Assembly (NCBI GenBank): GCA_003242955.1
Contig: QJPH01000380.1
Coordinates: forward strand, 1 to 50,157
Direction of reading: 5' to 3'
DNA length: 50,157 nucleotides
From: Candidatus Methylumidiphilus alinenensis
GTDB taxonomy: Bacteria; Pseudomonadota; Gammaproteobacteria; Methylococcales; Methylococcaceae
Shown: piece after piece, positions 19,169 to 47,580 of the stretch
Layout of the letters: every line of letters starts with the position of its first letter
Numbering within the stretch: position 1 is the stretch's first letter
Position numbers and translations under genes: made by a program
The notes under the pieces: model-generated
Told to the model about the DNA's origin: nothing
Seen by the model: only the letters and a program-made list of their open reading frames with translations
Databases searched by the model: none

Positions 19169-20215
19169 TCACAAATTGACGGGCATGTCTGATTCATCCA
19201 GATGCGCAATATGCAAGCGGTTGCGACCCGCTTCTTTTGACTTGTCCAGACAGTCCTCCGCCAACTTTAGCAATGCATCAATTTTTGTCCCGTGCGAGGG
19301 GATGGCATTGGCCACCCCTAGGCTAATGGTAAGATGGTAAGCAACTTCGCTCTTGCAATGAGGAATTTCTAAGTTTTCGACCCCCGACCGCACCAATTCT
19401 GCAACATGGATGGCTCCCTCTGCGTGGGTGGCAGGCAGCAGTGCGGTGAATTTTTCGCCAGTCAAACGGGCCAGCACATCTGACGGTCGGCGGATTGACT
19501 GGCGGAATACCCCGGTGATGGTTCTGATGGTTTCGTCTCCCTTCGGGTGTCCATAATGTTCATTGAACAGTCTGAAGTAGTCCAAATCCATCATTAACAG
19601 GGAAATGGGGATGTTATTGCGCACAGCCAAGCTCCACAACTCGTTGCACCGTTCCTCAAAGGTTTTCCGGTTAGCCAAACCTGTCAAAAGGTCGTTCCGG
19701 GTTAGTTCTGTGACTTGCCCGGACAGAAAGTCGATCCTCGCCTGACCGATTCGCAACGCCATTTTTGCCTTGTCCCTTTCCATTTTGACGAAGTAGGCGT
19801 TTGAGTGATGGCGCAAGCGGGCGATTAGCTCGATTTTGTCGGGCAATTTGATCAAGTAATCGTCGGCACCGGCTACGAATGCTTGCACCTTGACGAGAGG
19901 CTCATCGGAGCCGAACAGCATGATCACGGGTTTGTCGCGGGTTCTTGGGTGGGCACGGAGAAATCGACACAAGGTGAAACCGTCTATTTCGGGCATTGCC
20001 ACATCAAGCAATATGACCGATGGATCGACTTTCTCAGCCATTTCAAGGGCCTTGAACGGATCGGAACAGTAATGAAAATGGATATCAGCCTCGTCACTGA
20101 GCAACCGCCGCACGGCCTCGGCGGTGAAAGGACTGTCCTCCACCAACAGGATGACGAGGGCATGTTTGACTACACTCGAAACGCCTTCGCCAGGAAGGAT
20201 CAAACCGCTGGACAT
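19169..20215 (-). CDS. wspR: WspR-like response regulator with degenerate GGDEF domain
   Basis: Last gene of the Wsp-type operon, 348 residues, matching the 347 of Pseudomonas WspR. The receiver domain (residues 20-140) keeps Glu/Asp (LLVEDS), the phosphoacceptor Asp71 and Lys in DYLIKLPDK, but the conserved Thr/Ser is Phe101. The C-terminal GGDEF domain (about 175-340) has TGEKF at 252-256 instead of GGEEF, so one of the acidic active-site residues is Lys. The RxxD inhibitory site (RPSD, 243-246) is at the correct 5-residue distance. I infer loss or strong loss of diguanylate cyclase activity with possible retention of c-di-GMP binding. It is 6 bases downstream of the CheB-like gene. Confidence 0.9.
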   Translation of the reverse strand: MSSGLILPGEGVSSVVKHALVILLVEDSPFTAEAVRRLLSDEADIHFHYCSDPFKALEMAEKVDPSVILLDVAMPEIDGFTLCRFLRAHPRTRDKPVIMLFGSDEPLVKVQAFVAGADDYLIKLPDKIELIARLRHHSNAYFVKMERDKAKMALRIGQARIDFLSGQVTELTRNDLLTGLANRKTFEERCNELWSLAVRNNIPISLLMMDLDYFRLFNEHYGHPKGDETIRTITGVFRQSIRRPSDVLARLTGEKFTALLPATHAEGAIHVAELVRSGVENLEIPHCKSEVAYHLTISLGVANAIPSHGTKIDALLKLAEDCLDKSKEAGRNRLHIAHLDESDMPVNL

Positions 20216-20221
20216 GGCTGT

Positions 20222-21250
20222 TTATCCTCGCGCTTGTCCACTTGGCTTGGACTTCTCATAGTGCTTCAGTTCCTCCGCTATTTGAGAGAGGGGGAGAATA
20301 AGCTTAGCCGCACCCAACTCTATCGCCGCCTTGGGCATTCCGTAAACGGCGCAGCTTTCTTTGTCTTGGGCGATTGTATGCCAACTAGCGCGCCGAAGTG
20401 CCATCAATCCAGACGCACCATCCCTTCCCATGCCGGTCAGCAACACCGCTGCCGAAGGTTTGGGCCAGTTTTGCGCGACACTCGCAAAGAACACATCGAC
20501 TGAAGGCCGGTACGGATAATCCACAGGCTCCACCGTATAGGCTATGGTCCGGTCGGTTGTAAGCACCATATGATCGTTAGTGCTGGCAATAAGCACATGA
20601 CCGGCGAGCGGCCTGTCCCCAGCACGGGCGATATCGACTAACAGCTTGCAGTGTTGCCCCAACCAGTGGGCAATGCCCTCGGCAAATTGCTCGTCCACAT
20701 GTTGCACCACCAAGATAGCGGCATGAAATCCATTGGGCAAGGCAGCCAGGATAGTGGCAATGGCATTGGGTCCCCCAGTCGAAGCGCCGATGACGATCAA
20801 CGGCGGCAGGTTCTTTTCCTTACCAGTCAGGTCTTTAATGATGCTGTCTCTGCCATGCGCTGATGAGGCAATGCGTTTGCGGACGGCATCTATTTTTCTC
20901 AGTAACTCGAGCGCATCTTCAGCATTTCCGAATGCCGGGACATTGACCACATCCAAGGCACCCGCCCCCAAGACTTGGAATACCTCGGATATCTGCCGTT
21001 GGTAATTGACCGCCGCCACTAGTATGGGGCATGGCGTTTTTTTCATAATGCGCTGTGTGCAGTCAACGACCTCTGAAACCGACAGGGTCAAGCCCATCAA
21101 TAACAGGTCGGGGACATCCTCCGCGCACATGCGCACCGCTTCGGCGCTACCATTTACAATCCAAGCCAGATTATGTTCGGGGGCGAGCGACAACGCCAAT
21201 CGTAAAGATTCAATGGCAGCCGTCGGGGCATTGGCAATGGCAATTCGCAT
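20222..21250 (-). CDS. wspF: WspF-like CheB methylesterase with degenerate receiver
   Basis: Removes methyl groups from the receptors. 342 residues: receiver-like domain (1-120) and CheB catalytic domain (about 150-335). The catalytic Ser157 is in GASTGG, with His in VVQHVDEQFAEG and Asp in LTGMGRDGA. The receiver is degenerate: at the phosphoacceptor position the sequence is PDLLLMGLTLS (Gly53), where WspF has LMD, and the N-terminal acidic residue is also missing (ANAPTAAIES). Phosphorylation by the CheA-like kinase should therefore be impossible, leaving the esterase unregulated or differently regulated. It follows the CheA gene after 2 bases. Confidence 0.93.
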   Translation of the reverse strand: MRIAIANAPTAAIESLRLALSLAPEHNLAWIVNGSAEAVRMCAEDVPDLLLMGLTLSVSEVVDCTQRIMKKTPCPILVAAVNYQRQISEVFQVLGAGALDVVNVPAFGNAEDALELLRKIDAVRKRIASSAHGRDSIIKDLTGKEKNLPPLIVIGASTGGPNAIATILAALPNGFHAAILVVQHVDEQFAEGIAHWLGQHCKLLVDIARAGDRPLAGHVLIASTNDHMVLTTDRTIAYTVEPVDYPYRPSVDVFFASVAQNWPKPSAAVLLTGMGRDGASGLMALRRASWHTIAQDKESCAVYGMPKAAIELGAAKLILPLSQIAEELKHYEKSKPSGQARG

Positions 21251-21252
21251 TT

Positions 21253-23481
21253 TTAGGCATCTCCGATCAAGCTAGTGACCACCTCAAGCAGAGTATCGTC
21301 GTTGAAATTGCCCTTGGTCAGGTAATAATCGGCCCCGGCATCCAGCCCTCTAAGCCTATCTTCTTCCCAATCTTTGTAGGACATTATCACTACGGGCGTG
21401 GATTTTAACCCTGCATCCTGCTTGATCTTGGATACCAGTTCTATTCCATTCATTCTTGGCATGTCCACATCGGTGATGACAAGATCGAATCCACCGCTTC
21501 GCACGGCATTCCATCCATCCATTCCATCGACCGCCACTTCGACACGGTACTTCCTGTTCTCAAGCAGCTTACGTTCCACTTCCCGAACGACAAAGGAGTC
21601 ATCCACCACCAGAATGCGTTTGCCCAGTTTGGCAGCTTTGGATGGGCTTGCCCCGCCTTGTTGTAAGTGGTTCCTGCCTATCAGCCTGTCGATGGAACGG
21701 GTCAAATCGTCCACGTCTAGTATAAGCGCTGGCGTACCGTCTTCCAACAGGGTTTCGGCGGCAATGTCACGTAACTTACCCAAACCGGGGTCCAAGGGTC
21801 TTACGACCAAATTGCTTTCACCAATGAAGCGATCAACCACGACACCAAAACGCCCATCCCGGTCACTGATTACAACGATATTGTAACAGTCGGTCAAATC
21901 AGCGGTTTGCTGCAATTCAAGTACTTGGGCCGCTACCACTATCCCTACGGGTTTGCCGTTCAGGTAAAAAAAATCATTGCCTTGCAAAGAGGAAATATCA
22001 TGCTGCCCGAGAATCAAAACCTTTTCGACTCGCGTTAAGGGGAAAACGTAAGCCTCACCGGCTATTTGCGTAACCAAACCGCGCATGATCGAAAGGGTAA
22101 GAGGCAATTGGAGTTGAAAATGGGTTCCCTGCCCGACCTCGGAATGGGTTCTCACTGAACCGCGAATCTGTTGCAGGCTATTCATGACCACATCTAGCCC
22201 CACCCCGCGCCCGGAAATTTCCGTCACTTTGTCTTTGACGGTAAACCCCGGCAGGAAAAGGAAATCATAGAGTTCAACAGTACTCAGGCCAACTGCCGTT
22301 TCTTCGGAGACAAGTTTGCGCAAAACCACAAGGCGGCGCAACGCTTCAGGGTCAATCCCGCGTCCGTCGTCCTCTACAGCGACGAAGAGCATGCCCGCTT
22401 GATGCCTGGCTTCCAATCGGATGACGCCCTCAGCAGGCTTGCCTACGGCAAGCCTTTCATCGGGTGATTCTATGCCATGGTCTATGGCATTGCGCAACAG
22501 ATGATTAAGAGGTGACTGGAGTACGTCTAAAATATCCCGGTCCACCAACGTATTGTGTCCGCCAATAATAAGCTGTACTTGTTTTCCTAGTTCTCCTGCA
22601 ATATCCCTTACCATACGTGGAAAGTTCGCCACGCCTTCGGAAAATGGACGCATCCTGCTGGTCGTAGCCTCTTTGTAGAGTTGCCGTGACAACTGGCTTG
22701 AGCGACGCTCAAAACTTTCCAGAAACCGCCAGTTTCCGGCAATGCCGTCAGCGGTTTCGGCACTAATCTGTATGGCTACCCGCAACAGTTCAAGCTCATG
22801 CTCAATCTCGCCGATTCCCGCCAGATGCCTTTCTATACGTTCCAGCCGTCCAGTCAACCCGTTTAATTGTCGGACGGTGCGAAGCAAGGAATGCACAAAG
22901 GGAGCAAGGCGGCGCGACTCGACCAGAAACTCGGCGGCAAGCCCAATCAAACGGTCAAGGAGTTCGGCATTGATCCGCAACACCTTCTCTTCGCCATCTC
23001 CAAACGTGGCCGTCGTTATTACAGGCTCGGACGAGGTTTTTTCGATTGCCGCAGTGAAATGAATGTCAGGCATTTCAATCTGTCCTCCTGACATGGCATT
23101 GCTGATAGCCTCGGCTAGTTCATTATAAGTCTTTGAGTTGTTGGCTATCCAATCGCTGATTTTGCCTTCATCTAAAAGGGCGATGCGCGCCAAATGATCG
23201 GCACCTTTCAATAGAAGGTCGAAATGTGGGCGTTTAAGCGTAAAACCTTTCTGTGCCGCAATAAAGCAATCCTCCATGGCATGTGCCAGCACCACGGCAT
23301 TGGGAAGATTGACTATCCGTGCTGCACCCTTGATGGAATGGGATGCCCGCATCAAAGACTGGAGCACCTTCTGATTGTGTGCGTCACGCTCCAGTTCCAA
23401 CAACCCTTTGATGATTTCAGATGCCTGGTTTTCCGCCTCAACGCGGAAAAGCTCCAGCATGGAAACGTCGGCTAGGCTCAT
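21253..23481 (-). CDS. wspE: WspE-like CheA histidine kinase with C-terminal receiver
   Basis: Hybrid chemosensory kinase, 742 residues. Order: HPt (His48 in ASHSIKGAAR), dimerisation segment (about 165-290), ATPase (LNHLLRNAIDHGIES; VEDDGRGIDPEALR; EISGRGVGLDVV), CheW-like regulatory domain (about 485-610) and a receiver (622-742) with ILVVDDS, Asp671 in ITDVDMP, and Lys in YYLTKGNF. All catalytic motifs look intact. In the Pseudomonas Wsp system this kinase phosphorylates WspR and WspF; here both candidates are altered, while the divergent REC-PP2C protein is not. The start overlaps the WspD-like stop by 4 bases. Confidence 0.95.
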   Translation of the reverse strand: MSLADVSMLELFRVEAENQASEIIKGLLELERDAHNQKVLQSLMRASHSIKGAARIVNLPNAVVLAHAMEDCFIAAQKGFTLKRPHFDLLLKGADHLARIALLDEGKISDWIANNSKTYNELAEAISNAMSGGQIEMPDIHFTAAIEKTSSEPVITTATFGDGEEKVLRINAELLDRLIGLAAEFLVESRRLAPFVHSLLRTVRQLNGLTGRLERIERHLAGIGEIEHELELLRVAIQISAETADGIAGNWRFLESFERRSSQLSRQLYKEATTSRMRPFSEGVANFPRMVRDIAGELGKQVQLIIGGHNTLVDRDILDVLQSPLNHLLRNAIDHGIESPDERLAVGKPAEGVIRLEARHQAGMLFVAVEDDGRGIDPEALRRLVVLRKLVSEETAVGLSTVELYDFLFLPGFTVKDKVTEISGRGVGLDVVMNSLQQIRGSVRTHSEVGQGTHFQLQLPLTLSIMRGLVTQIAGEAYVFPLTRVEKVLILGQHDISSLQGNDFFYLNGKPVGIVVAAQVLELQQTADLTDCYNIVVISDRDGRFGVVVDRFIGESNLVVRPLDPGLGKLRDIAAETLLEDGTPALILDVDDLTRSIDRLIGRNHLQQGGASPSKAAKLGKRILVVDDSFVVREVERKLLENRKYRVEVAVDGMDGWNAVRSGGFDLVITDVDMPRMNGIELVSKIKQDAGLKSTPVVIMSYKDWEEDRLRGLDAGADYYLTKGNFNDDTLLEVVTSLIGDA

Positions 23482-24170
23482 TTGAGGGTTTTTTCCATGG
23501 CATGGAACATGAGTTCCTCATCCAGCAGGCCGATGCTTTGCCCTCCATCCTGCAATATACCCCGCACTAATTTGCCCAATGCGTGGGACAGTGATGCTGG
23601 AACGGGAAGAAGGTCAAGCTGTGCGTAACGGCAGGAACCAAGCACTTCGTCCACTAGCAATGCGAAGCGGCTTTCATTGCGACGAATGACCATCATGCGA
23701 GGGAATATCCGGCGTTTCCCATCCGCATCAGGTTTGAAATCCTCAATACCAAGCAATTTGACCATGGAAAAACATAGTCGCAACTGCCCATGGATATTGA
23801 CGATGCCCTTCAGAATATCCGTGGCATAATGCGGCAGGCGGTGAATCATCTCGGGTTGGCAAATTTCGTCAATGACACTAATAGGCAGCGATAGGAATTC
23901 ACACCCGACGCGAAACACCAGCACCGATGAATGCTCGGATATTCGCCGGTCAGGGGCCGGTTTGGAATAGTGGCGATACCATTCGTCTAGATAATTGGGC
24001 GGCAAGGACTGGCGTTCGAATATTTTGCTGGCCGATGCCGCAAAAACCTGGCAGTTGTGGCAATGGACAACTTCCTGCAATTTAGGGCAAGGGCTTTCGG
24101 CATGGCTCCAAACACCAATACGGTTCCAACAATCGTCAATGACCGTGAAGGAATGAACTGGGTCTTGCAT
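23478..24170 (-). CDS. wspD: WspD-like CheW coupling protein
   Basis: CheW-family adaptor linking receptors and kinase, 230 residues from the ATG at 24170, chosen because AGGAAC lies just upstream and it starts 2 bases after the CheR stop; an ATG at 24194 would overlap CheR by 23 bases. The N-terminal part (FTVIDDCWNRIGVW, then CPKLQEVVHCHNCQVFAAS) with its Cys/His cluster is the WspD type. The CheW domain starts at about residue 80 (SVLVFRVGCEFLSLPISVID) and includes GIVNIHGQLRLCFSMVKLLG. Confidence 0.92.
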   Translation of the reverse strand: MQDPVHSFTVIDDCWNRIGVWSHAESPCPKLQEVVHCHNCQVFAASASKIFERQSLPPNYLDEWYRHYSKPAPDRRISEHSSVLVFRVGCEFLSLPISVIDEICQPEMIHRLPHYATDILKGIVNIHGQLRLCFSMVKLLGIEDFKPDADGKRRIFPRMMVIRRNESRFALLVDEVLGSCRYAQLDLLPVPASLSHALGKLVRGILQDGGQSIGLLDEELMFHAMEKTLK

Positions 24171-24171
24171 C

Positions 24172-25500
24172 TCAGTTCCTAGTTTGCTTTCCATCAGCCT
24201 GCCTAGCCCGCAGCCGGAATAATTCTGCGGCCTTCATATCGCCGCGCTCTTCTGCGGCCAACGCCAGATGTGCGAGTGCCTGCACATGATCCGGTTGCAG
24301 ATAAACGGCTTTACGCAAGCAAATCTCCGCTTCCGCCGCAAAGCCTTGTGATTTTTGCAGCAATCCAAGCAAATAATAAGCGTCGGCCTTTGGAGGGCTA
24401 GTCGACAACGACGCTTCGCAAAGTTTGCGGGCATCTTCAGTCCGCCCTTTGTCGGCCATTTCAAAAGCCAACGCTAGAGAGTCCACCGAAACCTCCCTGT
24501 GTTCTGGATACCGGCAATCCCTGCCGGTATGGACGGCTTTGTCAACTACATTGACCTCGGCCCTCTCCCAAGGGGCGAGGGTGTTTCGTATTGCTTTACT
24601 TCCTCCGTTTTCTATAGCCCTTGCAGCCGTTCCAATCGTTCTCTTGTCATCCTGCCGTTGCTGCCTGATGCCCATAGAAGTAGGAAAATTTTGCCCAACA
24701 CACTGATTGCTCTTGCGGTAGGCAAAACAAAACGGATATCGAACCGGGGAATAGCCTCTATTCAGTGCTTGCAAGGACTCCGCATGGCCTACAAACAAAA
24801 CCCCGGAAGGAGAAAGCAACTTGTCGATGACTGCCATGGACTCGTCCTGCTGCTTCGGTGCCAGGTAAATCATCAAGTTGCGAAAAAACACCGCATCATA
24901 GGGGCCCTTGCCTACGGCGAAACCGGGCATCATCATATTGCCACGGGAAAAGGCCACACAGCGCCGGACTTTCTCGCCAAGTACATAGCCTTCGTCCGTC
25001 AAATGGAAATACCGCTCACGGAAGCCCATGTCCCGGCTGCGAAATGAATTGCGATGATATATCCCCATCTGGGCTTTTTCCAATGCTTGTCTGCTGATGT
25101 CAAAAGCTTCGATCCGCATTTGTTCCGGGCTGAGTCCAATGTCAAGCAAAGCCATCGCGATAGTATAGGGTTCTTCGCCGGAAGAGCAAGGAAGGCTCAA
25201 TATTTTGATTGGGATGTCAGGACATGAAGGCTTCCATTCTTCGCTGACATATTTCTGCAACAAAGCAAAAGGCTTTTCGTCGCGAAAAAACCAAGTCTCC
25301 GGCACCACGATGAGTTCAACCAACTCATCCAATTCTTCGGGTGATTTCCCGATTAGGTCGATATAACTTGCCTCGTCCGCCAGACCGCACTTGGCCATGC
25401 GCTCCTTCACCCCCCGCGCCAAGGGCGAGCCGCCAACCGTTGCCAAATCAATCCCGACTGACACCTTTATGAGATCATGGATTTGTTGAAGTATTCGCAT
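24172..25500 (-). CDS. wspC: WspC-like CheR methyltransferase with TPR domain
   Basis: SAM-dependent methyltransferase that methylates receptor glutamates, 442 residues. The CheR part (1-275) has VVPETWFFRD, LSLPCSSGEEPYTIAMALLD (SAM binding) and AVFFRNLMIYL. The C-terminal TPR region (about 350-440: ALAFEMADKGRTEDARKLC, AYYLLGLLQKSQGFAAEAE, ALAHLALAAEERGDMKAAEL) is the WspC arrangement. The linker between them contains residues encoded by a dispersed repeat (24491-24583, about residues 306-337), which keeps the frame. It follows the CheW gene after 11 bases. Confidence 0.94.
   Translation of the reverse strand: MRILQQIHDLIKVSVGIDLATVGGSPLARGVKERMAKCGLADEASYIDLIGKSPEELDELVELIVVPETWFFRDEKPFALLQKYVSEEWKPSCPDIPIKILSLPCSSGEEPYTIAMALLDIGLSPEQMRIEAFDISRQALEKAQMGIYHRNSFRSRDMGFRERYFHLTDEGYVLGEKVRRCVAFSRGNMMMPGFAVGKGPYDAVFFRNLMIYLAPKQQDESMAVIDKLLSPSGVLFVGHAESLQALNRGYSPVRYPFCFAYRKSNQCVGQNFPTSMGIRQQRQDDKRTIGTAARAIENGGSKAIRNTLAPWERAEVNVVDKAVHTGRDCRYPEHREVSVDSLALAFEMADKGRTEDARKLCEASLSTSPPKADAYYLLGLLQKSQGFAAEAEICLRKAVYLQPDHVQALAHLALAAEERGDMKAAELFRLRARQADGKQTRN
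24491..24583. repeat. In-frame repeat copy inside the CheR/WspC-like gene
   Basis: ACCTCCCTGTGTTCTGGATA, CCGGCAATCCCTGCCGGTAT and CCCTCTCCCAAGGGGCGAGG follow the order of the intergenic element at 18518-18627 and of the copy at 42352-42451. It encodes the linker residues between the methyltransferase and TPR domains, without stop codons in the CheR frame. Confidence 0.8.
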
Positions 25501-25511
25501 GATGCGGACCC

Positions 25512-25988
25512 TTAATCTTCCAACTCCAGCAAGGCGCGGGACTCTTCTGTCAAAAATTTGTCGGGATGGATGATTTGCAGGATTTCACCCTCATGCATCG
25601 CTAACATCCCCAAATAGGGTGCGCTTTCGCTCCAAACTCCGCTGACCCGCAACGTCTCTGGCAAAATTTTCACGGTTCCGGTCACGCCTTCCACCATCAA
25701 CCCCAAAATTCTCCTGATGCCATCCCTGCGCAGCACGGGGGTCAGCAGAATGCGGGTACTGACCACTGCTTTGCAAGGCTTTCCGGTCACCAAAGAGTTG
25801 ATATCCAGCACGACAACCGCTGTCCCCCGATAGTTCAAAACACCGGACACCCATCCTTGCGTCTGCGGCAACTGTTTCAATGTCAGCAACGGAAGCACCT
25901 CGATGAGATCCGCCGCAGGCAGGGCATAACGGTCACTGCCGATAGAAAAGACAACTGCATATAAGGGTTTGTCCGGGTCAAAAGCCAT
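25512..25988 (-). CDS. wspB: WspB-like CheW coupling protein
   Basis: Single CheW domain, 158 residues: YAVVFSIGSDRYALPAADLIEVLPL, then GVLNYRGTAVVVLDINSLVTG, then VEGVTGTVKILPETLR. It is the first CheW of the operon, directly downstream of the second receptor gene (5-base gap) and upstream of the CheR gene, as in the Pseudomonas wsp order A-B-C-D-E-F-R. Confidence 0.92.
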   Translation of the reverse strand: MAFDPDKPLYAVVFSIGSDRYALPAADLIEVLPLLTLKQLPQTQGWVSGVLNYRGTAVVVLDINSLVTGKPCKAVVSTRILLTPVLRRDGIRRILGLMVEGVTGTVKILPETLRVSGVWSESAPYLGMLAMHEGEILQIIHPDKFLTEESRALLELED

Positions 25989-25993
25989 GGAAT

Positions 25994-27484
25994 TTACCCC
26001 AATTCCTGGACGGCATTTTGCACATCACGCGTCGCATCGGTCAGTAATGTCACCATCTGCCGCGATCCATGGATAGACTGTACTGTTTGATGGATACCCT
26101 CGTTGAACTGTGACATGGACTCGGTGATTTGTAGTGTACCTAGGTTTTGCGCCTTCATCCCTTCATAAATCAGATCAAAATGTGGGCTGAGAACCATGGT
26201 TTGCTCAATGGATCCGTTCAATTTCCAGCTTATTTTGCGGACATCCTCCACAGTGAGGCCAATTTCCTTGGCAAACTTATCCATCCCCATTACGCTGATG
26301 GAAACTTGGGACTGGATTTCTTTGACAATTTGCCCAATATCAAACAGGGCAATCGAGGTTTGATCGGCAAGGCGGCGAATTTCCTTGGCCACCACGGAAA
26401 ACCCCATCCCGTATTCCCCGGCTTTTTCCGCTTCAATGGCGGCATTTAATGAGAGCAGGTTGGTTTGTTCGGCAATTTTTCCGATGAATTTCACCACAGC
26501 GCCAATATTGCTTGCCTTTTCGTCCAGCACCCCCAATTTGGCGGCAATGTCGTTTGAAGCCCTTGCCATATGCCGCATGGTTTCATCCAATTGATCCAAA
26601 CTGTCTTGGCTTTCTCCCGCCCATTGGCTAGTCTCAAGGGCTATACGGCTGATTTCATCCATGTTTTTGCCCAATCCCTTGGCAGTGGCGGAAATCTGCC
26701 TAGCGGATGCCACGATCTCATTGCCAGAGGCGGCCTGCTCTTCTACAGTCGCCTCCAACTGGTGGATCAAGGCTGCCAGTTCGTTGGCACTGGCATAGGT
26801 TTTTACACCAACTTGCTGCAATAGACGTAGCGTCTTGGAAAACCGCCGGGAAACTTGAAAAATCGCCAGCACTTGGAATAAAACAACCAACCCGATTGCA
26901 AGCTGGGTCCCAATACTTGCAGATGCCAGTGACCGTTCACTCTCATTACTGACTTCGCGCCCCGACGAGACATTGAATTTTACCAGTTCATCAATTGCTT
27001 TGGTGACTTCGGCCAATTTTTCCCTAGTACGGCCTCGCCAATAAGCCATAGCCTCGGCCTTTTGATTCTGTCTGGCAAGAGCAAGGATTTCGTTGGCAAC
27101 GACAAAATATCCGTCCATGGCCTTCTTGCTTTTATCGAATAGATTCCTTTCAACTTGAGTGCTGATAAGCTTGGCAAACGCCGCTTCATTTTCCCGATAA
27201 GCCTGAAATCGCTTGGTCAACTGCCCTTCAGTGTATTCGACCTCGTTAGGGTCGCTGGCTTCTATGCGCAATAGCAGCGCAACCCGGTAACTATTGAACG
27301 CGCTTTTCATTTCCGTTGCGGCCAAGGTCGCTGGCATCCACTTGGAATGAAGTTCCAAAACCGGTTTGTGGATACTTTCCAACTGACGGTTTGCATACCA
27401 TCCCAACAGCACCATGGTCAATAGAAAGAAGACGAAGGAAAAGACTAGCCAGTGATAAAATTTAATCTTAGAAAACCCATTCAT
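25994..27484 (-). CDS. WspA-like methyl-accepting chemoreceptor, paralogue 2
   Basis: 496 residues. Membrane segment 1 at about 11-30, a four-helix-bundle type periplasmic domain (about 35-185), membrane segment 2 at about 192-212, then a long coiled-coil signalling domain. The hairpin tip is IAEQTNLLSLNAAIEAEKAGEYG, followed by the WspA-like EIRRLADQTSIALFDIGQIV and SVMGMDKFAKEI. I see no clear HAMP domain between the second membrane segment and the signalling coil, only about 25 residues. It is about 60% similar over its length to the product of 27565-29052 and lies 81 bases downstream of it. Confidence 0.92.
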   Translation of the reverse strand: MNGFSKIKFYHWLVFSFVFFLLTMVLLGWYANRQLESIHKPVLELHSKWMPATLAATEMKSAFNSYRVALLLRIEASDPNEVEYTEGQLTKRFQAYRENEAAFAKLISTQVERNLFDKSKKAMDGYFVVANEILALARQNQKAEAMAYWRGRTREKLAEVTKAIDELVKFNVSSGREVSNESERSLASASIGTQLAIGLVVLFQVLAIFQVSRRFSKTLRLLQQVGVKTYASANELAALIHQLEATVEEQAASGNEIVASARQISATAKGLGKNMDEISRIALETSQWAGESQDSLDQLDETMRHMARASNDIAAKLGVLDEKASNIGAVVKFIGKIAEQTNLLSLNAAIEAEKAGEYGMGFSVVAKEIRRLADQTSIALFDIGQIVKEIQSQVSISVMGMDKFAKEIGLTVEDVRKISWKLNGSIEQTMVLSPHFDLIYEGMKAQNLGTLQITESMSQFNEGIHQTVQSIHGSRQMVTLLTDATRDVQNAVQELG

Positions 27485-27564
27485 TGTTCATGCCCCGGAA
27501 TGGTTGTAACCCCTTGAAAGCGCGACTTTTCGCATCTGTCGCGGTTAGAAATCACAGCCACGAA

Positions 27565-29052
27565 TTAACTTAAGGCCTTAACCACCCGTTGAACATCTTG
27601 CGAAGCATCGGTCAAAAGTGTCACTGTCTTCCGTGAATTGCGTATGGATTCGGCGGTCTGGTGGATGCCCTCGCTAAACAGCGACATTGATTCGGTGATT
27701 TGGCCAGTGCCAATATTCTGAGCTTGCATCCCCTCGAAAACACGCTCGATCCGCGGACTGAGTGCCTTGGTTTGCTCAATGAGTCCAGTCAATTGATGGC
27801 CGATTTTGCGGACATTCTCCACATTGCGGTGGATTTCCTCGGCAAACTTGTCCATACCCATCACGCTGACGGATACCTGCGATTGCATTTCCTTTAGAAT
27901 CTGTTCAATGTCGAACGTGGCAATCGAGGTTTGATCAGAAAGGCGGCGGATTTCCGTAGCCACCACGGAAAACCCCAAACCGTATTCGCCTGCCTTTTCC
28001 GCCTCAATGGCTGCGTTTAGTGAGAGCAGATTAGTCTGGTCGGCAATCTTGATAATCAAATTCACCACGGAATTGATGTTGCCTGCCTTATCGTTGAGAA
28101 TCGCCAATTTGGTGGAAATGACATTGGATGCATCGACCATCGAGCGCATGGTTTCGTCAAGTCGAGACAATCCTTGCTGGCTTTCCGTCGCCTTATGGCT
28201 GGTTTCTTCGGCTATTTGCGCGATTTCGTTCATATTGCTGCTTAACTCCTTAGCGGTGGAGGAAATCTCCTTGGCTGAGGCAACAATCTCATTGCTGGAC
28301 ATGGCCTGCTCCTCTATCGTTGCTTCCTGCTGGTGGATGACGGCCGCCAACTCATTGGAACTGGTGCAGGTATGCACACCCACTTTATGCAATAGACTCA
28401 CCGAATCGGAAAACACCTTGACGACATAAAACCCCATCAATTCAAACACGGCCAACACGCAAAGAATTACATAAATTTTCTGGCGACTGGATGCCAGCAA
28501 AATTGCGCTTTCTTGGGCTGTCCTTTGACCGCCTTCCACATTGAATTTGATATCTTGTTCGATGGCCGCGATAAATTCATCCTTTTTATCCCGTAACTTG
28601 CCTCTCATCAGCGCCAAAGCCTCAGCCCTTTTATTTTCATGGACAAGAACGAACATTTGCTCACTGCCTTTTAAATAGTCGTCGAACAGTTTACTGCTCT
28701 TGTCAAACAATTCCTGTTCCGTCTGATCGACGATTGTGGGCACATAAATCGACTCGCTTTTTCTATAGGCATCCAGCTTGTTTTTCATATCCTGTTCCGT
28801 ATAGGCAATCTCCCAAGGTTCCTCTGCAACCAAACGCTGAAAGGCAGCCGCCCGGTAGCCATTAAACCAATTTCTCATTTCGGTGAGCGTTTGGGTTGCT
28901 GGCATCCAATTAGACTGAATTTCATGGACTTTTTGGTTAATCGCTTCCAACTGTCTGAGCGAATAAAAGCTCATGAGTACGATGAGAACGAAAAAAGAAG
29001 CCAAGGAAATGATCAGTTTGTGGGAAAGTCTAATTGATGTAAACCACTTCAT
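27565..29052 (-). CDS. wspA: WspA-like methyl-accepting chemoreceptor, paralogue 1
   Basis: First gene of the operon, 495 residues. Membrane segments at about 10-28 and 190-212 flank a four-helix-bundle domain with YTEQDMKNKLDAYRKSES. The signalling tip is IADQTNLLSLNAAIEAEKAGEYG, then EIRRLSDQTSIATFDIEQIL and SVSVMGMDKFAEEI, all close to Pseudomonas WspA. In that system WspA forms membrane arrays that respond to surface contact. As in its neighbour, no HAMP domain is apparent. It is divergent from the REC-PP2C gene at 29189, with 136 bases between them. Confidence 0.93.
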   Translation of the reverse strand: MKWFTSIRLSHKLIISLASFFVLIVLMSFYSLRQLEAINQKVHEIQSNWMPATQTLTEMRNWFNGYRAAAFQRLVAEEPWEIAYTEQDMKNKLDAYRKSESIYVPTIVDQTEQELFDKSSKLFDDYLKGSEQMFVLVHENKRAEALALMRGKLRDKKDEFIAAIEQDIKFNVEGGQRTAQESAILLASSRQKIYVILCVLAVFELMGFYVVKVFSDSVSLLHKVGVHTCTSSNELAAVIHQQEATIEEQAMSSNEIVASAKEISSTAKELSSNMNEIAQIAEETSHKATESQQGLSRLDETMRSMVDASNVISTKLAILNDKAGNINSVVNLIIKIADQTNLLSLNAAIEAEKAGEYGLGFSVVATEIRRLSDQTSIATFDIEQILKEMQSQVSVSVMGMDKFAEEIHRNVENVRKIGHQLTGLIEQTKALSPRIERVFEGMQAQNIGTGQITESMSLFSEGIHQTAESIRNSRKTVTLLTDASQDVQRVVKALS

Positions 29053-29188
29053 TTGTTTAACCTGTATGGGCGGACTACTGATCGGGCTTCATAATCAATC
29101 CGAAGCGAGAAAAGATCACTTGGCATAAGGCATTCTTTAGCCAACTCGTTTATTATAATCCTTTGGATAAGGCACACGGCTAATTTTC
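29053..29188. promoter_or_regulatory. Divergent control region of the Wsp operon and REC-PP2C gene
   Basis: 136 bases separate the two start codons, so promoters for both the receptor operon and the phosphatase gene must lie here. I could not assign convincing -10/-35 boxes with confidence. The shared region suggests the two transcripts are co-regulated. Confidence 0.4.
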
Positions 29189-30400
29189 ATGAACACAGTA
29201 GAGACAACAGCAACCCAATCGGATATCAACGCTTCAGCACATCCTATAAGCGTGTTACTGGTTGACGACCAAGTGATCATTGGCGAAGCGGTGAGGAGAA
29301 TGTTGGCCGAAGAGCCTGACATCCGGTTCCACCATTGCCAAGATCCGACTCAGGCCATAGATCGGGCTAACGCATTCGGCCCGACGGTAATCCTGCAAGA
29401 CTTGGAAATGCCTGAATTGGACGGGTTGACGCTGATCAAGTTCTTCCGTGCCAACCCATCGACCCGGGATATCCCTCTAATTGTGCTCTCGTCGAGGGAG
29501 GAACCGTCGACCAAGGCAGAAGCTTTCGTTCTCGGTGCGAACGACTATTTGGTAAAATTGCCAGACCGGCTGGAAATGCTGGCCCGCATCCGTTATCACT
29601 CAAAGGGCTACGTTGCCCAACTCGAACGTAACGAAGCCTATCGCAAACTCGCCGATAGCCAACGGCAACTGGCGGAAGAAGTGGCAGAAGCTGCAAAGTA
29701 CGTCCGCTCGCTGCTTCCCGAACCAATTAAGAAAGGACCCGTTAGGATCGATTGGCGTTTCTTGCCATCGACACAACTTGGAGGAGACTCGTTTGGTTAC
29801 AATTGGCTGGACGACGATCATTTTGCCGTCTATCTGTTAGATGTGAGCGGTCACGGAGTGGGTTCGTCGTTAATGTCCGTCTCGGCCTTGAATATATTGC
29901 GCTCCCAAGCCCTACCGAGCACCGATTTCCGGGAACCAGGCCAAGTGCTGCGAAGTCTGAACATGGCCTTTGCAGAGGAATTGCATGACAACAAATACTT
30001 TACCATATGGTACGGCGTCTTCCGCATTAGCACTAAGCAGTTGGCTTATAGCGGCGGGGGCCATCCACCTGCCCTGCTGTGCAACGGAGGGCAACGGCAA
30101 GATACTGATTTGACCCGGCTCAATTCCAAGGGACCGATGATAGGAATCATGCCAGACATCCCGTTTGCCACACAAACCGTGCAAATAGAATCTCCCGCAA
30201 AAATATTCCTTTACAGCGACGGTGCCTATGAAATTAGGTTAGACAACGGAGAAATGTGGGAATTTGACAAATTCGTAAATTTCCTTGGCACCGCAGCCCA
30301 TGACACTCCCGTGATGGACCAATTGCTAACCCAGATTCGGAAATTGCAAAGGCTTGAGCAATTAGACGACGATTTTTCAATAATGGAAATCGACTTATGA
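29189..30400 (+). CDS. WspR-like receiver fused to PP2C (SpoIIE/RsbU-type) phosphatase
   Basis: 403 residues. The receiver (20-140) resembles Pseudomonas WspR: LLVDDQVIIGEAVRRMLAEE, Asp71 in VILQDLEMPELDG, Ser in IVLSSREEP, Lys in NDYLVKLPDR, and the helical linker RYHSKGYVAQLERNEAYRKL. All receiver catalytic residues are intact. Instead of GGDEF, the C-terminus (about 180-403) is a PP2C domain with metal-binding residues in QLGGDSFGY, LLDVSGHGVGSS, LYSDGAYEI and LDDDFSIMEI. Such phosphatases usually act on anti-sigma-factor antagonists (RsbV/SpoIIAA-type). I infer that the Wsp-like kinase phosphorylates this protein. It converges on the GGDEF gene with a 7-base gap. Confidence 0.92.
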   Translation: MNTVETTATQSDINASAHPISVLLVDDQVIIGEAVRRMLAEEPDIRFHHCQDPTQAIDRANAFGPTVILQDLEMPELDGLTLIKFFRANPSTRDIPLIVLSSREEPSTKAEAFVLGANDYLVKLPDRLEMLARIRYHSKGYVAQLERNEAYRKLADSQRQLAEEVAEAAKYVRSLLPEPIKKGPVRIDWRFLPSTQLGGDSFGYNWLDDDHFAVYLLDVSGHGVGSSLMSVSALNILRSQALPSTDFREPGQVLRSLNMAFAEELHDNKYFTIWYGVFRISTKQLAYSGGGHPPALLCNGGQRQDTDLTRLNSKGPMIGIMPDIPFATQTVQIESPAKIFLYSDGAYEIRLDNGEMWEFDKFVNFLGTAAHDTPVMDQLLTQIRKLQRLEQLDDDFSIMEIDL

Positions 30401-30407
30401 CAAGCCA

Positions 30408-32099
30408 TCACCGATGCCCACATCGAAACATTTGATAACGGCCCCCTCCCGCCTGCTTGGCGGAATACATGGCTTGGTCGGCATCTCTTAGCAATTGCTC
30501 GGGTTCGGATGGGTTGAGTGGAAACAGGGTGAAGCCAATGCTTGCCGAAACATAGGCTGCTTGGCCATTCATGTAGATCGGTAATTTAACCGATTCCAAA
30601 ATGCGCTTAAGGATGGCATGGCACTGCTTCAAACCATCGAAATTCAGTAGCAACAAAACAAATTCGTCACCGCCGACGCGCGCGACAGTGTCGTTTTCGC
30701 GAACACAGGCAGACAGGCGGCTTGCGACTTCCACCAACACCTGATCACCGGCCATATGCCCCAAGCTGTCGTTGATCGGTTTGAAGTCATCAAGGTCCAA
30801 CACACAGACGGCCATGCTCTTTTGGGTCTGCACTGTAAAGGTAATCGCCATGCGCATACGATCTGCTATCATGCGACGGTTATAGACACCGGTGAGCGGG
30901 TCAAAATTAGCCTCGCGCTGCAGAAGCATCTCCTTCTTCTTCAGGTGCGTAATGTCAGTGTAGATGGTGGTGTATTGCCGGATGTGTCCGGTGGCATCTT
31001 TGATGGCGGCTATGGACACCAATTGGGGAAGAATATCGCCGCCTTTGTTGCGATTCCAAACCTCACCACGCCAAAAGCCTGTTTCGATCAGGGATTGCCA
31101 CAGGTTTGCATAGAAGGCCACGTCGTGGCAATCGGATTTGAGCAATTTAGGCGTCTGTCCAAGCACCTCGTCGCGAACATAGCCAGTAACACGCGTGAAC
31201 GCTGGATTGACGTCAATAATGATGCCATCACCATCGGTTATCATGATGCTTTCTTGGGCGCTATCAAACACACTGGCCGCCGAGTGCAATTTCACCTCCA
31301 CTTCAATCTCCTCAGTGACATCCGTGACGAAGCCATGCCAAATGCAACTGCCGTCTGCTTCCCGTTGTACCTCGGCGTTGCCCTGAAACCAGCGTAGCCC
31401 ACCCCCAGAAAGACACAGGCGGAAGCGATTCCGCCACGGCTGTCCAGTTGTAGCGGATGCTTCCATCGACTCCATAAAACCCGCCTTGTCGTCCGGATGC
31501 AGCAAGGCAAATAACTTTTCGGCCTCTTGACACACCTCACCGGGTGTCAGTCCGGCAAGCTTGCGTATGCCTTCGCTGATGTAGGAAAAACACACACTGC
31601 CGTCAGCCCCCAAACGACATTGGTAAACCATGCCCGGCACTTGGTCGGTGACTTGCCGCAACAAGGCAGCCTGGGCTTTCAGAGTAAGATGGGTCTGCAC
31701 CCTTGCGCGTACCACGCAAGAGTTGACTGGTTTATGGATTAAATCCACCCCGCCTACTTCAAGCGCCAGTGCTTCATCCGTCGGTTCGCTTTGTCCTGTG
31801 ACGAAAATCACCGGGATATGTGTCGTGGCCGGGTCAGCCTTCAGTTGCCGGCATACTTCAAGACCATCCATATCGGGCATCATGATATCGAGCAGTATCA
31901 GGTCGGGAAGCACTTGGCGGCAGACACCAAGAGCCTGTTGGCCGGTAGTGGCCATGAAGACTTCATGATCGGTTTGGAATATCTGATAGAGTGCTTGAAT
32001 ATTGGCGGGTTGATCGTCCACCACCAGAAGGCGCGGTCGCACCGACTGGGGATAGAATGGGCTTGGACCATACTGGCTAGTTTTATTCGGTGTTGTCAT
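30408..32099 (-). CDS. REC-PAS-PAS-GGDEF diguanylate cyclase
   Basis: 563 residues making c-di-GMP from GTP. Receiver (22-140) with LLVVDDQ, Asp71 in LLDIMMPDMDG, Lys in DLIHKPV; first PAS (about 145-270), second PAS (about 275-395) and GGDEF (about 400-560). The active site GGDEF (476-480) is intact and the inhibitory site REND (467-470) is at the right distance, so it should be an active, product-inhibited enzyme. The first PAS is closely related to the first PAS of the adjacent giant protein (VPGMxYQ, SEGIRK, LHPxD, ILWHGF). Its start overlaps the stop of the giant gene by 4 bases; the two are one transcript. It may be the enzyme that replaces the missing WspR activity. Confidence 0.93.
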   Translation of the reverse strand: MTTPNKTSQYGPSPFYPQSVRPRLLVVDDQPANIQALYQIFQTDHEVFMATTGQQALGVCRQVLPDLILLDIMMPDMDGLEVCRQLKADPATTHIPVIFVTGQSEPTDEALALEVGGVDLIHKPVNSCVVRARVQTHLTLKAQAALLRQVTDQVPGMVYQCRLGADGSVCFSYISEGIRKLAGLTPGEVCQEAEKLFALLHPDDKAGFMESMEASATTGQPWRNRFRLCLSGGGLRWFQGNAEVQREADGSCIWHGFVTDVTEEIEVEVKLHSAASVFDSAQESIMITDGDGIIIDVNPAFTRVTGYVRDEVLGQTPKLLKSDCHDVAFYANLWQSLIETGFWRGEVWNRNKGGDILPQLVSIAAIKDATGHIRQYTTIYTDITHLKKKEMLLQREANFDPLTGVYNRRMIADRMRMAITFTVQTQKSMAVCVLDLDDFKPINDSLGHMAGDQVLVEVASRLSACVRENDTVARVGGDEFVLLLLNFDGLKQCHAILKRILESVKLPIYMNGQAAYVSASIGFTLFPLNPSEPEQLLRDADQAMYSAKQAGGGRYQMFRCGHR

Positions 32100-35000
32100 G
32101 TCAATAGTTCTCTAAGTTTGCGGCTTTCTGTGAGTGCCGCCGAAAAGTCCAGTCGGTTTATCGCAGCATGAAGCGGTGTCAATGGGTTTTGCGGCCCACT
32201 GCCGAACTCGCGTTTCAGCACGGCATGAATTTCCAAAGCCCGCAGATTATTTTCGGACAGCAGCGGATCCAACGCATCCAAGTAGGCAATGACCCGCACT
32301 GGATCGACCAAGGGTTCGGATGCAGCGGGAGGGTCGAAGGCATGGGCCAAATTTTTCAGCACATCGAAAGACTCATTCAATGCGGTGGCTAATCGAGCCA
32401 ACAGGTCTTCTGTTTTGTCCGGGGTGTTGCTAGTTTTTAGGCTAATTTCCGTTTCATTCGCCAAATAAGCAAGCGATTGCGCCCCCAATGTAGCGGCGAC
32501 CCCTTTGAGGGTGTGCAAGCAATGAGCGGCGGGCGAAGTGTCGCCTTGCTGCAAATGTTGGCGAATTTGATGGATGACGTCTTCCTGCTCGCCCAGAAAC
32601 TGGCGCACGGCTACCGCGTAAAGCTCTCGGTTGCAAGCAAATCGTTGCAACGCCGCTTCAAGTAAAAAGCCAGCGGGAACATCCGGCAAGCATGCCAAGG
32701 GGCCAGTGTCGTCTGTCGTGTTTGCCGAATGGGATAAACCTGCCGGGGTGGGAGTGCCTTCTTCGTTTATACAGTACTGCCGCACCAGAGCAATTAATGC
32801 TTCTACCTTGATGGGTTTGGCGATATGGGCATTCATGCCTGAGGCCAAACAATCAGCCTGGTCTGAGGCCAGCGCATTGGCGGTCATGGCGATAATCGGC
32901 ATCTGCGCCAGTGACTTATGCTGTCGTAGCATGCGAGTGGCGGCAAAACCGTCCATTTTCGGCATCTGCACGTCCATCAGCACGGCATCGAAGGGCTGCT
33001 GTGTCGTTAGGACACGCTCAACACCCTCTAAGCCGTCCCCGGCCACCTCGACTTGTGCACCTTCAAGGGTCAGAAGATTTTTCGCCACCATCTGGTTCAC
33101 TAGATTATCTTCTACCACCAACAAATGCAGCCCCTTCAGACGGTCTGTCCCGTGCCGCCCGACGGTGATGGACGAAGACGCTGTCAATTCATCGCCCACG
33201 TTGCCTATTGGGAATTCAAGTGTGAAGGCAAAACAGCTACCACACCCCGGAGTACTAACCACCGTCAGATCGCTCCCCATTAAACTGACTAGCCGCTGGC
33301 TGATCGTCAAACCCAACCCGGTGCCGCCAAAACGCCGAGTGGTAGAGGCCTCTGCTTGGTTGAATTCTCCGAAAATTGTTTCCAGCTTGTCAACGGGTAT
33401 GCCAATGCCGGTATCGCGCACGGCGAATTCGACCCATACCCGATCCAGCTTATGTTCCACGACACGCACGCTCACCACCACCTCGCCCCGTTCGGTAAAC
33501 TTGATGGCGTTGCTAGCGAGATTTAGCAGCACCTGCTGTAGCCGCAGACTGTCGCCTAACAAGGTGCGCGGGATGTCAGCATCGCAATCAATAACCAACT
33601 CAATGTCCTTGCCTTGAAGAGACGTGGATAACACCGATGACAGATTATTTAGCAAGCGATTAACCTGGAAAGGCGCATTCTCAAATTCCAGCCTGCCCGC
33701 CTCAATTTTTGAATAATCCAAAATATCGTTGAGGATGCCCAGCAGCGACTGTGCGGCCGACTGTGCCTTTCCTGTGTAATCCAGTTGTTGTTCCGAGAGT
33801 TCTGTAAATTGCAAGAGTTGCAGTATCCCCAACACCGCGTTCATCGGTGTGCGGATTTCATGCGACATGTTGGCCAAAAACTCGCTCTTGGCTTGGGCCA
33901 GTCTTTCAGCCTCTATTTTGGCTTTTAGAACCTCCACTTCCACCTGCTTACGGGCGGAAATATCAGAAAGCACACAATGGGTTCTGACAAAATTGCCGTC
34001 AATGTCGCGTTGGATGCGCCCTTCCAAAAGTGCGGTGATGCACCGCCCATCTTTCCCTATTAGGCTCAATTCCGTGGCAACTGCCCCATTGGATTTAAAT
34101 TCGTCAAATGCTGGATCGAAGGATGGCCGCAGATCATCCAGCCATACCTCATCGAATGCTTTGCCTAGAAGCTCATCCCTAGTGTAGCCCAACAGATCAC
34201 TCATTCTCTGATTGACATCAATGAATCGCCCTTGGATATCGAGGGATTGGTAAGCGACAGGCATGTTTTCAAACAGCGATCTGAAGCGGGATTCACTAGC
34301 GGACAACACGGCTTCGGCAGTTTTTCTTGTTGTCATATCAGTGTGTGTGCCAATCATTCGGGCAGGGTTGCCCTCGCTATCCCGGCTGACCATCATGCCG
34401 CGGGTCAGTATCCACTTGTAGCTGCCATCCTTGCACAGTAGGCGGTGTTCGTTGTCATAGGTTGCAGTCAACCCATCGAAATACGCTTGCAAATCGGTCA
34501 TAATCTGTGGTTCATCCATAGGGTGGATAAGGCGTTGCCAGTCTTTGATAGTGTCACCGATCTCGTCGTCGGCATAACCCAGCATGGCTTTCCATTGTTT
34601 GGAAAAATAGGCCCGATCCGTTTTGATATTCCAGTCCCACATGCCATCGCGGGAGCCTTCAAACGCAAAATTAAGGCGTTCTTCGCTTTCCCTTACTTTT
34701 TCCAAGGCATTGCGCTGATCGCTGATATCAATGCAAGAGCCGATATAACCGACGAAAGTACCGCTAAAATCATACAATGGCTCGCCATTGTCTTGAATCC
34801 AGCGGTATTCGCCATCACTTCGCTTGAGTCGGTATTCCATGCGGAAGGGTTCGCGGCGGTCGAAATGGCTGAGATAAATAGCCAAGCAGGGCTGGAAGTC
34901 ATCCGGGTGGACACCCTCCGCCCAGCCATTGCCAATTTCTTGCTCCATCGCACGACCGGTGAAATCCAGCCATTTTTGGTTGAACCAAGTGCAGAGTGTG

Positions 35001-40895: not shown

Positions 40896-42005
40896 TCAGA
40901 AAAACCTGACATCCAAAAAAGTCAGGTCATCCTCTAACCGTATGTCATTGGAAAATCGCAACAAAGCCTTTTGCAAAGGTTCCATTTCAATATTGGATTG
41001 GGGGTAACCTAATGATTTTAAAATATTAATCAACCCTTCCGTTTTTAGCTGCTGCCCGTAGGCATTGTGAATTTCAATGGCTCCGTCGGTAAACATCAGC
41101 AGGCAGTCCCCTGGCGCATAGGTGAATTCAGTTTCATCGTAATCGGCATCAGCGAACATGCCAAATGGCAAACCAGGCGCATTTAACTGTCTGGCATCGC
41201 CGTCACGGTTCAGCAAGACTAGGGGTGGACCGCCAGCGGAGACAAACCGCACAGTCCTCTTGGCGGCATCAATAAGGCCGCAGACCGCCGTGGCAAATGA
41301 CTCGCCCTTGACGATCTTGCTTAACTCCCGGTTCATGTGGCTGGCAAATTCCGTTGGATCAAATAGGCTTTCCCGGTAACGTCCCCACAACGAACTCAAA
41401 TGCATAGTGTGAAGCGCGGCGGCTACGCCATACCCCATCACATCCGCCAAAAGGAACCCATAACAGTTTGCGTCAAGCTTACTGATGGCATAATAATCGC
41501 CCCCGATCATGTCATGCGGAAGATAGAAACTGGCGAAATTCAAGCGGTCGTCTTGAGGCAGATCGCATTCCAAAGAAAGCATCTGAATTTGCTTGGCGCG
41601 TTCCATATCCCGGTAGGTTTCGGAAAAGTCGTGGAAGCTCTCAACACCGCCCACCACCCGGCCTTCCCGGTCATGGATGGGAGAAACGGAAACCAACATC
41701 GGCACACGGCCCCCAGTTTTGGTTTGACCAAAGACAATCACAGGGCAAGTGCTTGCCGTGTTAGTGACCATGCACCTGTGCAATGGGCAAAATTCCTCGC
41801 CGCACAGCCGGTGACCATCCTTATCCTCATGGACGAGGATATTATCCATGCATCGGTGCCCCACAACCTCCTCCGCAGTCCATCCGGTGAGGCGCTCGGC
41901 GGATTTGCTCCAGTACACAATGCGGCGCGCCCGGTCACAGACATAGAGGCCGTCATTCAAAGAGTCCAAGATTATGTCGGTTAGGGGTAAGTGCAGGTTT
42001 TTCAT
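40896..42005 (-). CDS. PAS domain plus PP2C (SpoIIE/RsbU-type) phosphatase
   Basis: 369 residues. PAS domain at about 8-130 (LNDGLYVCDRARRIVYWSKSAE, with Cys-rich GEEFCPLHRCMV), then a coiled linker and PP2C domain (about 155-369) with metal-binding Asp residues in MIGGDYYAI, LADVMGYGVAAAL, FTDGAIEIHN and LEDDLTFLDV. It is the second phosphatase of this class in the island. The ATG at 42005 is only 8 bases from the end of a MITE-like repeat. No RsbV- or RsbW-like partner is in the window. Confidence 0.93.
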   Translation of the reverse strand: MKNLHLPLTDIILDSLNDGLYVCDRARRIVYWSKSAERLTGWTAEEVVGHRCMDNILVHEDKDGHRLCGEEFCPLHRCMVTNTASTCPVIVFGQTKTGGRVPMLVSVSPIHDREGRVVGGVESFHDFSETYRDMERAKQIQMLSLECDLPQDDRLNFASFYLPHDMIGGDYYAISKLDANCYGFLLADVMGYGVAAALHTMHLSSLWGRYRESLFDPTEFASHMNRELSKIVKGESFATAVCGLIDAAKRTVRFVSAGGPPLVLLNRDGDARQLNAPGLPFGMFADADYDETEFTYAPGDCLLMFTDGAIEIHNAYGQQLKTEGLINILKSLGYPQSNIEMEPLQKALLRFSNDIRLEDDLTFLDVRFF

Positions 42006-47484: not shown

Positions 47485-47580
47485 GCCCCGCCCTCTGAAA
47501 GAGCCAACCTTAACGTATCGACCTCTTCCAGAACCTCTGCCTTTCTCATCATTCACTCCGCTCATAGTTGGCAAAAACGC

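Follow-up and report, generated by a model that had tools for sequence, protein, structure and literature searches.

The window analyzed here is a stretch of 50,157 nucleotides (contig QJPH01000380.1, positions 1 to 50,157, assembly GCA_003242955.1) from Candidatus Methylumidiphilus alinenensis. It carries a chemosensory gene cluster of the Wsp type together with a divergently transcribed gene that encodes a receiver (REC) domain fused to a SpoIIE/PP2C phosphatase domain, hereafter REC-PP2C. Wsp is a model for surface sensing, and its well-studied members make a small signalling molecule, cyclic di-GMP. The minus-strand genes, read from 29052 to 19169, follow the order A-A'-B-C-D-E-F-R in the window's open reading frames (ORFs); this gene set, proposed in a first-pass annotation of the DNA, is borne out by Pfam domains and gene order. 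Below, handles beginning with G, C and L denote genomes, contigs and loci. The features of the cluster are as follows.

29189..30400, plus strand: REC-PP2C, WspR-type receiver and SpoIIE/PP2C phosphatase (Pfam, PDB sequence matches, conserved residues)
29252..29590, plus strand: receiver domain of REC-PP2C, with D26, D27, D71, S101 and K123 (Pfam Response_reg, residues 22-134)
29810..30391, plus strand: SpoIIE/PP2C domain of REC-PP2C (Pfam SpoIIE, residues 208-401, 6e-39), with D200 just before the domain
29053..29188, no strand: intergenic region of 136 bp between the divergent genes (ORF coordinates)
27565..29052, minus strand: wspA1, 4HB methyl-accepting receptor (Pfam 4HB_MCP_1 and MCPsignal)
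25994..27484, minus strand: wspA2, second 4HB receptor (Pfam)
25512..25988, minus strand: wspB, CheW-like coupling protein (Pfam CheW)
24172..25500, minus strand: wspC, CheR methyltransferase with TPR (Pfam CheR and TPR)
23478..24194, minus strand: wspD, CheW-like coupling protein (Pfam CheW)
21253..23481, minus strand: wspE, hybrid kinase Hpt-HATPase-CheW-REC (Pfam), with the Hpt His and the receiver Asp present
20222..21250, minus strand: wspF, CheB methylesterase with a receiver that lacks the phospho-acceptor Asp (Pfam: CheB_methylest only)
19169..20215, minus strand: WspR-like REC-GGDEF protein, in which TGEKF replaces GGEEF and RxxD (RPSD) is kept

The best PDB sequence matches of the REC-PP2C receiver and linker (residues 17-164) are 3bre, which we take to be Pseudomonas WspR, and 3i5a, both REC-GGDEF proteins; 3eq2, a REC-PP2C protein, matches over the full length, but more weakly than either. 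Residues D26, D27, D71, S101 and K123 are identical in 65-67 of 67 WspR-type REC-PP2C relatives, and the PP2C residues D200, D218, H222, D344, D394 and D395 in 66-67 of the 67, the remainder being gaps in both cases. These are presumably the phosphorylation-site and metal-binding residues of the two families. Both the profile match and the conserved Asp residues expected of a SpoIIE/RsbU-type PP2C are present. The PDB matches and the invariant residues among the relatives thus uphold the proposal that an intact WspR-type receiver is fused here to an intact PP2C and transcribed divergently from the receptors. A sigma-70-like promoter between the divergent genes was considered and rejected, with 0 matches in 28950-29250 against a mean of 0.6 in shuffled sequence.

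We queried 301 genomes of the order for REC-PP2C (full-length matches at E below 1e-100) and for WspE (E at most 1e-120), and each was found in 22 genomes. All 21 WspE genomes of the same family have a full-length REC-PP2C, and 21 of the 22 REC-PP2C genomes have WspE; in the single genome without a WspE match, G089, 865 bases separate the start of the gene from a contig end. The 22nd WspE genome, G002, belongs to another family and carries a WspR-type REC-GGDEF gene in the operon. Divergent transcription of REC-PP2C and wspA1 is seen in six of six genomes of the genus, the window included (in G081, whose contig breaks off within wspA1, a different contig holds wspE and the WspR-like gene). The first receptor, wspA1, occupies the same place in five sister genomes at 71-78% identity, and wspA2 was found in all four sister loci whose contig reaches there, the match in L041 covering the first 345 residues only. 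In the other genera of the family, WspE and the REC-PP2C match share a contig and a strand in 15 of 15 genomes, and the REC-PP2C match starts 0.07-1.4 kb beyond WspE. Seven of the eight such loci that were read have the order wspB-C-D-E-F-REC-PP2C without wspR, REC-PP2C standing in the wspR place; in the eighth, L050, C and F were not recognized. No WspR-like gene was found in the operons of these genera.

The pairing extends beyond the family. One contig scan, with the phosphatase part as the query, yielded 571 confirmed loci, 80 of which were kept: 52 with a WspR-type receiver (61-82% identical to that of the window), 26 with another or no recognized receiver, and 2 that were cut at a contig edge and excluded. 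WspE was detected in the flanking DNA of 24 of the 52 WspR-type loci vs none of the 26 others. Among the WspR-type loci, E, F or C was present at 29 of the 52, and WspE at 11 of the 16 with long flanks on both sides. By record title, the 24 linked loci come from Planctomycetota (13), Pseudomonadota (2, the window's genus), Acidobacteriota (2), Ignavibacteriota (2), Thermodesulfobacteriota (1), Verrucomicrobiota (1) and Chlamydiota (1), with 2 unassigned; the combination of WspR-type REC-PP2C and WspE is thus found in records of six other phyla. The recurrence of REC-PP2C beside wsp genes that the first-pass annotation had suggested looking for is seen, both in all 21 same-family WspE genomes and in records from other phyla. 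The same annotation had held that REC-PP2C homologues commonly found without wsp genes nearby would count against its reading. Read literally this was observed, since 28 of the 52 loci lack a linked WspE. However, five of the 28 have WspF, and among 18 of the other 23 that were checked (all but L171, L182, L188, L190 and L198), 17 genomes carry WspE elsewhere. In 14 of 14 wsp regions from these genomes (L318-L331; the 17 genomes minus G668, G680 and G682), no GGDEF/wspR or PP2C gene was recognized beside wspE.

A class-wide sample gives a different balance of outputs. WspE occurs in 62 of its 369 genomes, and 59 places were fetched of the 61 outside G000/G003 (G605 and G469 were omitted). These comprise 55 with a WspR-type REC-GGDEF gene, one (L294) with REC-PP2C, and three without a complete output gene; cyclase output dominates the Wsp loci of this class.

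The WspE kinases are themselves divided by output. In a tree from which 11 long or output-less rows were omitted and in which about half of the GGDEF rows were used, the PP2C-output rows (28; support 89) and the GGDEF-output rows (26; support 97, starred) form separate groups, with the genus (5; support 100, starred) between them. Loci L142 and L143, repeats of G087 and G052, were excluded from trees and residue counts. Across 34 loci, taken without L147 and L162, WspE distances correlate with those of the receiver (0.69) and of PP2C (0.74), and 0 of 2000 permutations gave values as high. In a receiver tree built on few columns, PP2C and GGDEF receivers require two changes each, and a long branch carries the WspR-like receivers of the genus, on the PP2C side.

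The neighborhood of REC-PP2C points to a possible partner for the phosphatase. A STAS gene lies directly downstream of REC-PP2C in five of five sister genomes, four of the copies being 67-78% identical to the G087 query, and the STAS copies examined carry the motif FIDSSG. In the window, other genes occupy the place that the STAS gene holds in the five sisters:

30408..40399, minus strand: REC-PAS-GGDEF gene and a gene for a multi-domain kinase of 2767 amino acids

The universal-stress gene that follows the STAS gene in the sisters comes after these two genes in the window. The 2767-residue protein (32096-40399, minus strand) contains Ser/Thr kinase, AAA, GAF, PAS, histidine kinase, receiver and Hpt domains. 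Elsewhere in the family, an RsbW-type ATPase gene precedes wspB at four of eight loci of other genera, and G011, G029, G070 and G077 have a STAS gene close to the wsp operon. Beside the STAS gene stand a Peripla_BP_5 protein in G077 and a chemoreceptor in G029; at L128, L129, L130 and L054, from other genera of the family, STAS together with a chemoreceptor or Peripla_BP_5 gene near the wsp operon suggests a solute input. A second STAS gene, 53-58% identical to the G087 one, precedes a polysaccharide-export-like gene in five of five genus genomes read (Pfam was run on the copy of the window's genome and its neighbors), an arrangement which suggests STAS control of matrix production.

Further phosphatases were noted in these genomes. 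The window encodes another SpoIIE phosphatase, this one with a PAS domain, at 40896-42005 (minus strand), and proteins 70-72% identical to it lie near the cluster in three sister genomes. At L009 (8145-9359, G000 C24), a paralogous REC-PP2C has a similar linker, a related phosphatase and an ordinary receiver, with matches in six genus genomes. As a second output of the array this paralogue was rejected: its receiver is about 30% identical to that of the window (two sister copies), and it adjoins a hybrid histidine kinase. Another REC-PP2C at L011 (7033-8310, G000 C123) has an RsbW-type gene downstream and lies beside exopolysaccharide-synthesis-like genes. Toward the end of the window, 48452-50128 and 46330-47586 (minus strand) resemble, from sequence reading, type I restriction-modification M and S subunits.

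A working model emerges for a Wsp-type chemosensory array with a protein phosphatase as its main output, which we regard as quite probable; it draws on the co-occurrence, the gene-slot replacement, the STAS/RsbW neighbors at some loci and the way in which WspE divides by output. The pairing itself is real and conserved. By analogy with Wsp and Che biology, the WspA receptors, coupled by WspB and WspD and tuned by WspC/WspF methylation, would set the autophosphorylation of WspE, which in turn would phosphorylate Asp71 of REC-PP2C. Phosphorylation of the receiver would alter the SpoIIE/PP2C activity, up or down. To judge from the neighboring genes, the phosphatase may act on a single-domain STAS protein and remove phosphate from its conserved Ser, whereupon a partner switch between this STAS protein and an RsbW-type kinase, or another target, may follow. 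We infer this mechanism, and the STAS switch is its least certain step. Exopolysaccharide synthesis is a possible target process in the genus, given the polysaccharide cluster at whose head a related STAS gene stands. The WspR-like protein would probably serve as a second, non-catalytic regulator that binds cyclic di-GMP (c-di-GMP) via RxxD.

Several observations weigh against this model. No STAS gene adjacent to REC-PP2C was found in the window's genome, where the nearest STAS gene, on C187, shares 56% identity with that of G087. STAS or RsbW genes lie within 1.5 kb in only six of the 52 WspR-type scan loci, two of these being of the window's genus, vs 18 (STAS) and 19 (RsbW) of the 26 loci with other receivers, so that wsp-type phosphatases are less strongly linked to partner switching than ordinary ones are. 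Among control genomes, whose PP2C proteins have other receivers, 10 of 18 also match WspE at 1e-80 and 2 of 18 at 1e-150; because these genomes come from other phyla, the contrast with the 17 of 18 is indicative. Most of the records from other phyla are metagenome bins. The support of 89 for the PP2C group of WspE is unstarred, and the tree that gave it omits 11 long or output-less rows and uses about half of the GGDEF rows; with the long rows included, PP2C output needs three changes and GGDEF output five. Correlated distances are also expected from the shared descent of linked genes. Finally, the WspR-like receivers of the sister genomes retain the residues checked, so the phosphatase need not be the sole output there. 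Of the earlier proposal that chemosensory signals control a partner-switching phosphatase, the pairing of array and PP2C stands, by co-occurrence, slot replacement and the WspE split, but the partner-switching part is weakened by the infrequency of STAS/RsbW neighbors outside the genus.

The WspR-like protein merits separate consideration. In the window, its GGDEF motif reads TGEKF, the Ser/Thr of its receiver is Phe, and VDDQ has become VEDS. The receiver Phe is private to the window's genome; Ser and both acidic residues are present in four of four aligned sister proteins. GGEEF is found in none of the five WspR-like proteins of the genus vs 57 of 57 other WspR proteins aligned, and RxxD in five of five and 55 of 57, respectively. 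All five thus show the degenerate-GGDEF pattern, with the active-site (A-site) motif lost and the RxxD inhibitory site (I-site) retained, which we take to mark c-di-GMP receptors. The gene is open and in the wspR slot in the window and in the four sister loci that cover the slot, the sister proteins being 64-77% identical to that of the window. The description of this protein as damaged accordingly applies genus-wide to its GGDEF domain, but the receiver defect is confined to the window's genome. With GGEEF gone from all five, RxxD retained and the receiver defect limited to one genome, the protein looks repurposed rather than only damaged; we infer that it has been retained for a non-catalytic role, most simply c-di-GMP binding. 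WspF is altered as well: its receiver Asp is Gly in five of five genus members, and residue alignment shows that the window copy retains the esterase motifs. Elsewhere the Asp is present at 47 of the 51 loci that have WspR, at 24 of the 31 that have REC-PP2C and at all three that have neither. Genome G083 of the same genus (L062, L138, L139) has two WspR-like matches at 48-49%, with no WspE match at 1e-120 and no full-length REC-PP2C.

That the array acts mainly via the WspR-like protein, by residual cyclase activity or c-di-GMP binding, with REC-PP2C a bystander of another kinase, would explain the retention of the gene in its slot, the checked residues retained in the sister receivers and the conserved RxxD, and finds some encouragement in the two WspR-like matches of G083. 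Yet the uniform loss of GGEEF and the Phe in the window's receiver speak against such a role, and a bystander REC-PP2C would leave the 21 of 21 co-occurrence and the 14 wsp regions without a recognized output gene unexplained; we judge this explanation improbable. Somewhat better placed, if still doubtful, are two parallel outputs: WspE would phosphorylate REC-PP2C as well as the WspR-like protein, and this second output would report on c-di-GMP, either to the array or to the phosphatase. The genus keeps both genes, and the lost A-site motif, retained RxxD and sister receivers suit this arrangement, but the window's WspR-like receiver lacks the Ser/Thr, and the operons of the other family genera contain no WspR-like gene. 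An assembly artefact that joined REC-PP2C to the wsp cluster has a negligible chance and was rejected: the assembly has 597 contigs and an estimated 4.4% contamination, but the wspA1/REC-PP2C junction recurs in five sister genomes and a receptor/REC-PP2C junction in L146 and L151.

The origin of the arrangement is a distinct question. The first-pass annotation had the array apparently rewired from a cyclase to a phosphatase output in this genome; that is not supported as stated, as other genera of the family, and records from other phyla too, contain the same pairing. This also led us to reject a local origin of the PP2C output. A true rewiring in the genus, in which a GGDEF-output Wsp operon would have lost its cyclase after the arrival of REC-PP2C from a Planctomycetota-like donor, is a possibility that we hold only tentatively. 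The genus REC-PP2C is close to that of the Planctomycetota locus L146 (63-66% identity in PP2C, 76-81% in the receiver), while WspE is 46-48% identical, 2.4-2.7 standard deviations below the expectation from PP2C identity; L146 shares the divergent arrangement, and some WspE proteins of GGDEF systems reach 51% identity. That REC-PP2C is closer to L146 than WspE predicts hints at a mixed ancestry of the genus locus. Against rewiring, the genus WspE falls between the two groups and outside the starred GGDEF group, the WspR-like receivers lie on the PP2C side of the receiver tree, and the pair L217/L216 has a similar mismatch. WspE placement as proof of an origin from a GGDEF system was dropped, since the first tree placed the genus on the GGDEF side, unstarred, and the tree without long rows places it between the groups. 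Because the output is not local and the genus WspE sits between the two WspE groups, rewiring is no more than a possible history of the genus locus.

We compared the locus with known systems, as these are described in the available parts of the papers cited. The gene set and order, the domain content and the WspR-type receiver and linker are those of Pseudomonas Wsp (WspA-F, WspR), whose gene order is given in PMC8552884, and the window has the syntenic wspA-B-C-D-E-F core of such systems. It differs in the lost cyclase motif (the terminal REC-GGDEF protein has TGEKF, and none of the five genus members has GGEEF), in the PP2C protein that bears the intact receiver, in the second receptor and in the WspF receiver without Asp. 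Burkholderia cenocepacia WspH (PMC8552884) likewise combines a wsp core with an output other than a cyclase, whose gene forms a unit of its own upstream of the operon; however, WspH is a REC-histidine kinase hybrid, and the upstream gene here encodes REC-SpoIIE. According to the portion of Kessler 2021 (PMC8552884) available, all Wsp systems use WspR or WspH, within beta- and gammaproteobacteria; the words 'phosphatase' and 'SpoIIE' are absent from its main text. The Shewanella oneidensis Che1 cluster with CrsR/CrsA (PMC9855816) is a precedent for a chemosensory partner switch, formed by a regulator and a STAS antagonist, but it belongs to an F7 array probably acting on RpoS and lacks the Wsp gene set; a STAS antagonist gene in the chemosensory cluster, as in the CrsR/CrsA type, is present in five of five sister genomes and not in the window. 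F7 'stage 1' clusters (PMC7184735) include anti-sigma factor antagonists and a serine phosphatase, in another chemosensory class and gene order. The window also has the CheR-TPR and multidomain response regulator given for the ACF class in PMC3447774, where a phosphatase is among the regulator output domains of CheR-TPR/ACF clusters but, in the portion available, no connection is drawn from it to a WspR-type receiver, to STAS partners or to the wspR slot. In Vibrio fischeri, SypE, a kinase/phosphatase regulator, acts on the STAS protein SypA of a polysaccharide locus, with no chemosensory array as input in the portion available (PMC8256260). No Wsp array with a PP2C output was found among the matches listed in searches of open-licence papers, which is not proof of absence. 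The literature search agrees with the earlier statement that no such Wsp system is known to be described, although phosphatases are among the outputs given in PMC3447774 and Che1 contains a partner switch (PMC9855816).

A broader scenario is conceivable, although we think it rather unlikely to hold in full: Wsp would have two old and distinct branches, one making c-di-GMP and the other, across at least seven phyla, driving a STAS/RsbW switch, and their outputs would have come together in the window's genus, where a former cyclase would have become a c-di-GMP reader beside an exopolysaccharide-controlling phosphatase pathway. A PP2C-output branch in several phyla, if true, would mean that the same type of array can plug into Ser/Thr phospho-signalling, and it would offer an output for wsp operons without a recognized one, 14 of which were read. 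What sets output specificity, in the pair of WspE and receiver, could then be tested directly in a named strain, Desulfoferrobacter suflitae DRH4 (L164) for example. That gene sets resembling this one occur in distant bacteria suggests a common signalling route which has received little notice.

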